From positions 114,669 through 178,668 of the forward strand of contig JAPYSB010000001.1 of NCBI GenBank assembly GCA_029936675.1: 64,000 nt of DNA, written 5' to 3'. Positions 395-23,400 of the stretch are shown here, piece by piece; the stretch's first letter is position 1, and the number at the start of each line of letters is the position of its first letter. This DNA is from Dehalococcoidia bacterium. GTDB taxonomy: Bacteria; Chloroflexota; Dehalococcoidia; Lucifugimonadales; UBA826. A program made the translations under genes and the position numbers. Under the pieces are notes generated by a model. It saw nothing but the letters and a program-made list of their open reading frames with translations. It had not been told where the DNA came from and did not search any database.

Positions 395-928
395 ATGGTT
401 GAAGGAATTAGAGTTTTGGATCCAACAATAGATGCCAATTCACAGAATTCCCTACTGGCGATACGCCCAGAATCGCTCAATGGGTTGACGGTAGGGCTAC
501 TTGCTAACGGCAAAAAGAACTCTGTAGAAATACTCCAATACGTGTATGAGATTCTCAAGGATGATCATGGGCTAGGGGCTGTTATTGAAGATAACAAAGG
601 TAACGCTTCAAGACCATGCCCTCCAGACTTGTTAGAAAAGCTAGCCAATCAATGTGATGTGATTATCACAGCCTCAGGTGATTGAGGGTCATGCTCTTCG
701 TGCAGTGTGCACGACGGAATTCAATTTGAGAAAAGAGGTTTACCTGCCGCTGTAATATGCACTGAACCATTTGTAAGCAGTGCCGTGGCTATGTCCAAAA
801 TGGGAGGAATTCCGGAATTTCCATTTGCAGTAGTGCCTCACCCACTTGGAAGTTTAGATGAAAACTCATTGAGAGAAAGAGCCAAGGAAGTAGTCGGAGA
901 TATTGTCAAAATACTATTAGAAGGTTAA
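395..928 (+). CDS. UGSC family selenoprotein, Sec encoded by in-frame TGA
   Basis: One 177-residue protein is read if the TGA at 683-685 is decoded as selenocysteine (residue 97); the frame continues unbroken on both sides to the TAA at 926-928. The sequence around it reads SGD-U-GSCSSCSVHDG, the signature that gives the UGSC (seleno)protein family its name. The N-terminal half has the family-like DPT start and TVGLLANGKKNS, and the C-terminal half ends with VVPHPLGSL. Sec97 lies near Cys100 and Cys103, a probable redox site. The start is supported by GAGGGA at 385-390. A perfect 7-bp hairpin follows the TGA at SECIS distance, and tRNA-Sec is encoded 4 kb away. Biochemical function of the family is not established. 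A gene finder would split it into two ORFs (395-685 and a GTG-started piece from 707). Confidence 0.92.
686..717 (+). promoter_or_regulatory. Bacterial SECIS-like hairpin after the Sec UGA
   Basis: Bases 698-704 (TCGTGCA) pair perfectly with 708-714 (TGCACGA) around a three-base loop GTG (705-707); after a mismatch, 696 with 716 and 695 with 717 can extend the stem. The loop begins with G, 20 bases after the UGA. Known bacterial SECIS elements have a small apical loop with G among its first two bases, roughly 16-37 nt after the UGA, so the geometry fits. It lies in coding sequence (GSCSSCSVHDG), as expected for a bacterial element that binds SelB. Confidence 0.8.
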
Positions 929-3144: not shown

Positions 3145-3211
3145 TGGCGGGAGCGCGAGGGAGTCGAACCCACCACACCAATCGAAGGATTGCTGCCAAC
3201 GGAGTTGAAGT
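3145..3211 (-). repeat. Truncated 3'-half copy of selC (att-like direct repeat, copy 1)
   Basis: 67 bases matching 66/67 to the 3' half of tRNA-Sec at 4889-4955; the single difference is at 3175 (A here, G at 4919). Read on the minus strand it runs from the anticodon loop through the long variable arm and T arm to the acceptor 3' strand and CCA. To the right of 3211 the sequence no longer resembles a tRNA, so this copy lacks the 5' half and cannot make a tRNA. A tRNA 3' half repeated in direct orientation is the usual trace of site-specific integration at a tRNA gene, and selC is a well-known target in other bacteria. Confidence 0.85.
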
Positions 3212-3441
3212 TCAATTCATTCTTGATGCCTATTGTTATTATATGCCGAATCGTACCTAGAAATACTACTTTGAAGGAATATTAATACCGGCTCTACCAT
3301 CCAGTATCAGCCCGTGTCGGAAATTTGGTCGGCAAAATGTCGGCAGAAGTGAACCGGTTGGAGTAGAGCAGCACCTTTATATGTGTATGTAGGTGCGGAG
3401 ACTATTTTTCGGCTAGCAAGCTTTGGTCTCAAACCCCAGGG

Positions 3442-4233
3442 TCACAGTTTTGAAGGCAACCCTCCATCTATGTTCATAATTTCTCCCGTTATGAACCTGG
3501 AATCATTACAGGACAAGAATAAAACACAATTAGCGACGTCTACCGGATACCCGGGACCGTCTGTTATTTGCATTACATCAAAAAGTTTTTTAAAGTCGTG
3601 TTCCCCTTTGCCTTCACTGTCGGTCAACGGAGTGATTATCTGACCAGGTCTAACCCCGTTAACCCTAATATTTGATTCGCCTCCATGTCCGGCCGTCCAC
3701 CTTGTCAAGGCGTCAACTCCGGCTTTAGCAACAGAATATGAGGCTGAAGGCACTCTCCTTGACAATCGATACATGAATGGTGAAAGTCCCCCTGTGGCGG
3801 CTGCAGAGGACATATTGACAATAGCCCCTCCTCCCCGCTTCACCATATGTGGCCAGACGGCGCTACACATTTCAAAAACCCCGGTTAAATTGACCTCTAG
3901 AACATAATCCCATTGTTCCCTTGATTCGTTCGGAAATTTCTCTGGGCCTCCTCCGCCTGCGTTGTTGAACAGAACGTCTACTCCTCCAAACAGCGCGACT
4001 GTTTTATCTACTGCGCCACGGATATCGTCAGATTTCGAAACATCACAGCGTATAAACTCTGCAGTCCCGCCCTTTGCTTGAACGGCGGCTTGAACAATCT
4101 TTCCCTGTTCTTCACGACGAGCCATTATTGCTACACTAGCGCCCTCTTGGGCAAAAAGGTGGACAGTTGCCTCACCGATGCCGCTATTTCCACCGGTTAC
4201 TATTGCGACTTTTCCTTCTAATTTTCCAGGCAC
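3442..4233 (-). CDS. Short-chain dehydrogenase/reductase (SDR) inside the selC-flanked segment
   Basis: A classical SDR of 263 residues: NAD(P)-binding GGNSGIGEA near the N-terminus, NNAGGGG, the catalytic Tyr/Lys as YSVAKAG, and a C-terminal GEIMNIDGG. Between the catalytic Ser region (MSSAAATGG) and the Tyr there is an extra stretch of about 12 residues (PFMYRLSRRVPSA), longer than usual. I start it at the GTG at 4233 because a clear GGAGG precedes it; an ATG at 4251 would place the SD inside the gene. It lies alone between the two selC repeats and may be cargo of the element. Substrate unknown. Confidence 0.85.
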   Translation of the reverse strand: MPGKLEGKVAIVTGGNSGIGEATVHLFAQEGASVAIMARREEQGKIVQAAVQAKGGTAEFIRCDVSKSDDIRGAVDKTVALFGGVDVLFNNAGGGGPEKFPNESREQWDYVLEVNLTGVFEMCSAVWPHMVKRGGGAIVNMSSAAATGGLSPFMYRLSRRVPSASYSVAKAGVDALTRWTAGHGGESNIRVNGVRPGQIITPLTDSEGKGEHDFKKLFDVMQITDGPGYPVDVANCVLFLSCNDSRFITGEIMNIDGGLPSKL

Positions 4234-4445
4234 TAAATACCTCCATAGCATTTATGTAATGAGATTATAAGAAAATTTAAGACTACATTTGATAATATCA
4301 TTCTTACTAACACACAGTGTGATTGGAATTCGTACTGTTGAGGGTAGATAAATGGGGTATGCACGAAGGGGTGTCACGTAGCATTCTCTTCAATGCGAAC
4401 CGTAGACGGGGGTGCGGTGCTATATAGGTTAGGTACAGTTTCCGG

Positions 4446-4886
4446 CTAATTGTTGGTAGTCACAGGATCAAACCAGGCTGGCTCTTGCCCTCTGAATGAC
4501 AGGCCGAATTCTCGTTGAGAACCAGTCTTTGGAACATCGAATATTAGGAATTTATTTTTTATCGATGTACCCGCTTTCACAGATTGCCCTAAATCCAAAC
4601 AGGAGTGGCATAAGTCCCATCCTTCCTCAAAAAAATATTCGTGATTTATATGCTCGAAGGAAATGGATTTACTTCGGCTCGATTTCAGGGAAACAGGGCA
4701 GATCGTATACGCAAATTTCGTTAGCACGTCCAGCTGATACCGGGACCACCCTTCAGTGAAAATCATTCCTCCGTAATCCACCGCGTAATGGAATGATAGG
4801 CCTCCATACAAGGTGTCTAGGTCTGGGGAATGATTGTAAAACTTTGCATTACGTCCTTTGGAGTTTATTGAAAGGCACTGTTTAGC
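4446..4886 (-). pseudogene. Possible decayed fragment with a DUF4352-like tail
   Basis: An open frame runs from inside selC to the stop at 4446, but its beginning overlaps the tRNA and no convincing start exists; the ATG at 4766 has GGAGG only one base away. The end of the frame (GQSVKAG, FLIFDVPKTG, LSFRG) resembles the C-terminal strand pattern of DUF4352-type lipoproteins and shares FDVPK with the intact lipoprotein at 5428-5988. The first half has no recognisable content and no signal peptide. I read it as a 5'-truncated relic within the selC-flanked segment, though a short real gene or chance frame is possible. The rest of 4234-4445 shows nothing I can assign. Confidence 0.35.
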
Positions 4887-4888
4887 TT

Positions 4889-4955
4889 TGGCGGGAGCGC
4901 GAGGGAGTCGAACCCACCGCACCAATCGAAGGATTGCTGCCAACGGAGTTGAAGT
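4889..4955 (-). repeat. att-like direct repeat inside intact selC (copy 2)
   Basis: The 3' half of selC that is repeated at 3145-3211; the two copies are 1,744 bases apart in the same orientation. The repeat begins in the anticodon loop and ends exactly with the encoded CCA, the extent commonly seen when tyrosine-recombinase elements carry a replacement tRNA 3' end. The intact tRNA lies at this boundary. Confidence 0.85.
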
Positions 4956-4986
4956 CCGCAGAGACCACCAGGCCTCATCCGCTCCC
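4889..4986 (-). tRNA. selC: tRNA-Sec, anticodon UCA (selC)
   Basis: Minus-strand sequence starts GGGAGCGG and ends CGCTCCCG-CCA with CCA encoded (98 nt). It has the special tRNA-Sec features: a six-pair D stem (GAGGCC with GGTCTC) closed by a four-base TGGT loop, an anticodon stem CGGA/TCCG around loop CTTCAAC giving anticodon TCA, a long variable arm (GCAGCAATC with GATTGGTGC, one mismatch), and a T loop TTCGACT. The eighth acceptor pair (G-G) and one T-stem pair (T-T) look mismatched. It would decode the UGA of the selenoprotein 4 kb away. The companion genes selA, selB and selD are not in this window. Confidence 0.93.
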
Positions 4987-23146: not shown

Positions 23147-23176
23147 AAGGCCCGCCCCAATCAAGGGACGGGCCTT
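23147..23176 (-). terminator. T-box intrinsic terminator hairpin
   Basis: AAGGCCCGTCCC pairs with GGGGCGGGCCTT around a six-base loop (12 pairs, one G-T), followed by TATATTTT. It lies 18 bases before the ileS start and its 5' arm lies just after the T-box bulge, as expected for a terminator that competes with an antiterminator. Confidence 0.85.
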
Positions 23177-23400
23177 AAAATAGTCCGCGGTACCACCCTA
23201 ATTCCCCGCATCAAACGAGGCTCTTAGTCAAAAAGCACTGATAACGTAGTGCAGATCCGTCATTTCCTACTCACTTATAAGTTTTCAGAGTGAAACTCCG
23301 GAGTGATCTTCGAGCTAGCAGCAAGTACCCTCTCTCAGCAACCAAGGGCTCTCTGAACCGCAATCTAGTCTCTACTCGTCTCCATCAAAGTTATTTATTT
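23147..23400 (-). promoter_or_regulatory. T-box leader of ileS, specifier AUC (Ile)
   Basis: The minus strand carries the T-box core AGGGTGGTACCGCG (23186-23199), whose TGG would pair with the free CCA end of tRNA-Ile. It is followed by a strong stem-loop (23147-23176) and then ileS. Further upstream is Stem I with the characteristic GAGAGCCC...TTGCTGAGAGAGGG region, and a specifier segment GAAGATCACTC in which ATC (23305-23307) is the Ile codon. Uncharged tRNA-Ile should prevent termination and raise ileS expression. The leader is about 270 nt if transcription starts near 23404. Confidence 0.94.

Follow-up and report, generated by a model that had tools for sequence, protein, structure and literature searches.

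A UGSC-family gene with an in-frame UGA

The 64,000-nt stretch of Dehalococcoidia DNA analysed here (hereinafter designated the window), from a marine bacterium of the SAR202 group, opens with a two-gene unit on the plus strand. The first gene begins upstream of the window, and only its 3′ end lies within it, at positions 1-330; the full gene (L003:8266-9330) encodes a protein of about 335-354 residues, hereinafter designated the partner. The second gene, at 395-928, encodes a predicted UGSC-family selenoprotein of 177 residues. A single frame runs from the ATG at 395 to the TAA at 926-928, and its sole interruption is the TGA at 683-685 (plus strand), the putative codon for selenocysteine (Sec) at residue 97. 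Standard ORF calling yields two pieces, 395-685 and 707-928. The initial annotation, which described a continuous frame on both sides of the TGA, a residue context of SGD-U-GSCSSCS typical of the UGSC family and a gene split in two by gene callers, is borne out on all three points. The codons of Cys100 (692-694) and Cys103 (701-703), the second and third positions of a UxxCxxC motif, follow the UGA on the same strand (692-703).

The protein matches the Pfam family PF24696 (UGSC) over its full length with 193.8 bits against a cut-off of 25 (E 3.2e-57), and NF041046 (UGSC family (seleno)protein) with 143.4 bits against a cut-off of 125. In an alignment with 45 relatives, the U-G-S-C motif occupies residues 97-100, with Sec at residue 97 of the window protein and at the aligned position of its relatives. 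Cys100 is invariant across the 46 rows; a large share of the family has Trp at the position of Cys103. A near-identical locus is present in a Dehalococcoidia MAG, and further close loci are labelled SAR202. The window gene belongs to a family on record since 2008 or earlier, in which it is unexceptional, and is not novel as a selenoprotein; the marine GOS survey of 2008 places UGSC, with 255 sequences, among the most abundant selenoproteins (PMC2398784). No known reaction for the family was found in the open-access literature searched.

A family search locates UGSC in 29 of 60 related genomes, each match containing exactly one in-frame stop, a TGA. One TGA likewise interrupts nearly every UGSC match in a wider sample of the phylum, in which stop-free members are rare. 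The window's own genome has a second UGSC gene, in which the motif is UGTC and a further domain is fused on the C-terminal side. In two more distant Chloroflexota genomes (G195 and G180) there are 11 and 8 UGSC matches, respectively, an unusual expansion of a single family. Standard-code gene callers will truncate several UGSC-type proteins in SAR202 genomes.

Conservation of the UGA and its flanking sequence

Comparison with relatives argues for translation through the UGA. SAR202 relatives supply 70 distinct homologous stretches, of which 69 retain TGA at the aligned U of UGxC; the sole exception, L072, has the motif aligned with a one-residue shift. The UGA stands at the same site in all six close orthologues, from which the window gene differs mostly by synonymous changes both before and after it. 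The dN values against these orthologues are 0.00-0.10 before the UGA and 0.005-0.07 after it, and dS is at least tenfold above dN wherever it can be estimated, pointing to purifying selection on both sides. The stop-free members examined outside the order have Thr or Met at the Sec site, and none has Cys. UGSC homologues that have lost Sec in this way are L116 (G236:C21) and L117 (G235:C145), one of which sits beside a Sec-containing copy.

A covarying SECIS hairpin follows the UGA

The perfect 7-bp hairpin with a G-first loop that had been noticed downstream of the UGA lies at 698-714 on the plus strand, starting 13 bases after the UGA. UCGUGCA (698-704) forms seven perfect pairs with UGCACGA (708-714) around the loop GUG (705-707). 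Single-sequence folding gives the hairpin no significant gain in stability over shuffled sequences (z -0.47 and -0.86), and the SECIS assignment rests on comparative evidence. In 69 aligned stretches, pairing is intact in 92% of cells over the six base pairs of the stem, compared with 12-55% for versions of the stem slid along the alignment. When the set is reduced to 40 distinct stretches, 90% of cells are paired and the covariation score is 0.245. Shuffles give 0.077 and slid versions no more than 0.069; none of 500 shuffles equals the observed score.

The innermost pair alternates between C-G and G-C from stretch to stretch, in step with the encoded protein. Where the codon for residue 103 is TGC or TGT (Cys, 36 stretches), the codon before the His ends in G or A, and where it is TGG (Trp, 27 stretches), the codon before the His ends in C, without exception in either group. 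At least two to three switches of this pair are needed on well-supported branches of a tree that includes the trait's own columns. Compensation is also seen where the protein does not change: L024 carries TGT...GTA, with both pairing partners changed and Cys/Val encoded as in its relatives, and L044 and L085 carry TCA...CAT, again with both partners changed and with Ser/His encoded as in theirs. These doubly synonymous compensations indicate selection on RNA structure beyond that on the protein sequence. Judged by this comparison, the hairpin, with its small apical loop containing G, is a SECIS element whose stem covaries across paralogues. Some fusion-type relatives have a loop without G in its first two positions.

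Selenocysteine machinery of the genome

The genome to which the window belongs (2.19 Mb, 96.5% complete) contains selA (529.8 bits), selB (351.3 bits) and selD (384.4 bits), all above cut-off, and its selD itself carries an in-frame TGA. The selenocysteine tRNA gene selC, previously reported to lie nearby, is placed at 4889-4986 on the minus strand by both ARAGORN and Rfam (RF01852, 65.5 bits). The computable checks proposed in the initial annotation, namely the family alignment, the SECIS comparison and the search for selA, selB and selD, all favour recoding. Neither of the outcomes that the initial annotation had named as contrary to recoding, homologues that end or shift frame at the UGA and a genome lacking selB and selA, is observed. 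The UGA at 683 is thus almost certainly translated as selenocysteine, as far as sequence comparison can tell, directed by the hairpin at 698-714 and by the genome's own SelA, SelB, SelD and tRNA-Sec.

Two PrdB-like genes elsewhere in the genome (L104, G000:C44:13800-14231, and L140, G000:C49:55692-56117) contain an in-frame TGA in the context LTPT-U-PAC, in both cases where the GrdB/PrdB C-domain has its Sec, and are probably selenoprotein genes too. Together with the UGSC copies and selD, they bring the number of selenoprotein genes predicted in the genome to at least five.

The window also contains a 1.74-kb insertion at selC (3145-4955), bounded by two copies of the final 67 bp of selC (3145-3211 and 4889-4955). 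The close relatives L049, L050 and L056 lack the stretch between the repeats, which holds a gene for a short-chain dehydrogenase (3442-4251). The insertion has the appearance of a small element integrated at the tRNA-Sec gene; no integrase was seen. Farther along, a T-box leader occupies 23161-23397 on the minus strand (119 bits).

The upstream gene encodes a candidate partner subunit

In most loci, a homologue of the partner is encoded directly upstream of UGSC, directly downstream of it or in fusion with it; a few loci have none nearby. Aligned with the C-terminal part of the UGSC fusion in the same genome, the partner itself shows 33% identity across 272 positions. Of the 60 related genomes, 30 contain neither partner nor UGSC. 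Among the 30 that contain one or both, 25 have as many partner as UGSC matches, and the remaining five (G005, G022, G024, G050 and G057) have one extra partner match each, some of these being contig-end or fragment matches. UGSC is very likely the selenium-carrying subunit of a two-subunit enzyme, with the upstream protein of about 330 residues as the other subunit, as gene order, fusion and copy number suggest.

Fusion of UGSC to a domain termed ‘Unknown_1’ is already reported in the 2008 survey (PMC2398784), and the partner is probably that domain, an identification made through the fusion and not through sequence comparison. The partner matches no Pfam or NCBIfam family, even at E 1. Profile comparison with hhalign detects no relation of the partner to GrdE/PrdA (GrdE probability 0.1%) or to the pre-Sec part of GrdB, and the window's genome contains no PF09338 (GrdE) gene. 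Since the partner shows no detectable relation to GrdE/PrdA, substrate activation by a pyruvoyl group cannot be carried over to it. Neighbouring genes show no recurring function across 34 loci and indicate no single substrate; only close relatives share the MDMPI-like and EVE neighbours.

UGSC resembles the selenodomain of GrdB and PrdB

The GrdB model TIGR01917 is matched by 19 of 46 UGSC proteins (best 7.6e-07), and other UGSC proteins match the sarcosine, betaine and D-proline reductase models. Profile-profile alignment (hhalign) of UGSC with GrdB/PrdB C-domains from Chloroflexota gives an E of 1e-07 and a probability of 94%, superimposing Sec on Sec; the homologous region spans only some 80 aligned columns. 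In the phylum, complete GrdB proteins read U-G-T-C-T-R-C-G or U-G-S-C-N-R-C-G at the Sec site. The window protein falls well short of the curated GrdB/PrdB cut-offs (24.4 bits vs 602.2 and 20.7 vs 65.45), and a Pfam scan finds no match in UGSC to PF07355, the N-terminal GRDB domain. The profile evidence suggests that UGSC shares the selenium-carrying C-terminal domain of GrdB/PrdB, the selenoprotein B of glycine, sarcosine, betaine and D-proline reductases. The open-access literature searched yielded no text naming UGSC together with SAR202 and no account of its GrdB relation, flavodoxin-like fold or partner link; the GrdB relation and the match in copy number are therefore possibly new.

Predicted fold and competing explanations

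The AlphaFold2 model of UGSC (pLDDT 92.8) is a five-stranded flavodoxin-like alpha/beta structure with Sec placed after the third strand. Foldseek and VIA-align return only generic flavodoxin-like matches for it (best Z 10.1), and no thioredoxin is among the 50 PDB matches listed by each of the two structural searches, an absence that falls short of proof. The model favours a flavodoxin-like fold and does not support the thioredoxin-like one suggested for UGSC in the 2008 survey (PMC2398784). A model of the 545-residue fusion reaches a pTM of 0.92, and its structural matches fall mostly on the UGSC half. Sequence searches of the PDB with UGSC, the partner and the GrdB/PrdB profiles give no credible relative, the matches listed being unrelated or designed chains.

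These predictions bear on the possibility that UGSC is a thioredoxin-like thiol/selenol oxidoreductase (a peroxidase, disulfide reductase or sulfoxide reductase) to which the partner would serve as substrate adaptor. Such an enzyme would fit the UxxC motif, and many selenoproteins of marine bacteria belong to this class; we nevertheless consider it unlikely in view of the flavodoxin-like model, the listed structural matches without a thioredoxin and the sequence homology to the GrdB selenodomain. In the window and in several close relatives, 2 to 4 kb separate the UGSC gene from selC, an arrangement that would suit a carrier or sensor engaged in selenium handling instead of catalysis on an organic substrate. 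This proximity is local synteny of close relatives, with paralogues located elsewhere, on other contigs and in unrelated surroundings; many genomes hold several UGSC copies, and profile comparison places UGSC nearest to catalytic subunits, all of which makes a selenium-handling role very improbable. That the UGA is a real stop, a sequencing error or the mark of a pseudogene, leaving two short proteins or none, would agree with the frame split by gene callers and with the unremarkable stability of the hairpin alone, but has a negligible chance of being right given a UGA that six close orthologues and nearly all paralogues of some thirty genomes share at this site, purifying selection downstream of it, the covarying hairpin and the complete Sec machinery.

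A putative two-component selenolate reductase

Taken as a whole, the sequence evidence is best explained by the recoded UGSC protein and its partner forming a two-component selenolate reductase that cleaves a C-X bond, a reading that we regard as fairly probable. In the GrdB/PrdB class, selenium is thought to attack carbon, and schemes with Sec attack on the substrate have been proposed for both glycine and D-proline reductase (PMC10298544). By analogy with that selenodomain, the Sec97 selenolate would attack a carbon atom in a small substrate bound at the partner or close to it, expelling the leaving group; the Se-carbon adduct would be resolved by a nearby thiol, Cys100 or Cys103, to form a selenenylsulfide, which cell thiols would then reduce. 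In net terms, a C-N, C-S, C-O or C-halogen bond would be cleaved reductively. We put this sequence of steps forward tentatively, with somewhat less than even confidence. The initial annotation had suggested redox chemistry from the combination of Sec97 with Cys100/Cys103; the suggestion is plausible but unspecific, the closest relatives belonging to the GrdB/PrdB class and not to proteins with a thioredoxin-like disulfide role.

Counting against a GrdB-like mechanism are a partner unlike GrdE, a genome without GrdE and the replacement of Cys103 by Trp in much of the family. GrdB-type enzymes are known from anaerobic fermenters. SAR202, by contrast, has been described as oxidising organic matter (PMC6946804), which counts against a direct transfer of the mechanism.

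The expansion of UGSC copy number in SAR202 and its relatives would, speculatively, reflect different substrates. It is conceivable, though doubtful, that UGSC and its partner represent a new class of selenium-dependent reductase, in which a GrdB-type selenodomain would work with an unrelated substrate subunit and which, multiplied in SAR202 and its relatives, would cleave C-heteroatom bonds of refractory dissolved organic molecules. The tie to GrdB/PrdB and a single partner of near-equal copy number turn an orphan family into a testable two-component enzyme whose second protein is named.

Comparison with known selenoprotein systems

GrdB/PrdB (PF07355, TIGR01917/01918/04483) and UGSC have in common a homologous C-terminal selenodomain with a UG(S/T)CxxC motif, in which Sec aligns to Sec. 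By contrast, UGSC is without the N-terminal GRDB domain, and its partner bears no recognisable likeness to GrdE/PrdA. FarB/FarE likewise combine a substrate-specific GrdB-type selenoprotein with a second protein; cleavage of the C-F bond in monofluoroacetate has been proposed for them, with nucleophilic attack of Sec on a polar carbon bond (PMC10838667). They differ in being GrdB/GrdE homologues of an anaerobic rumen bacterium, and are likened to UGSC here by description and not by sequence. With the UGSC family of 2008, the window protein shares a full-length match above both curated cut-offs and the U-G-S-C motif, with no essential difference. Added here are the SAR202 genomes, which often carry several copies, the almost constant presence of Sec and a partner in near-equal copy number.
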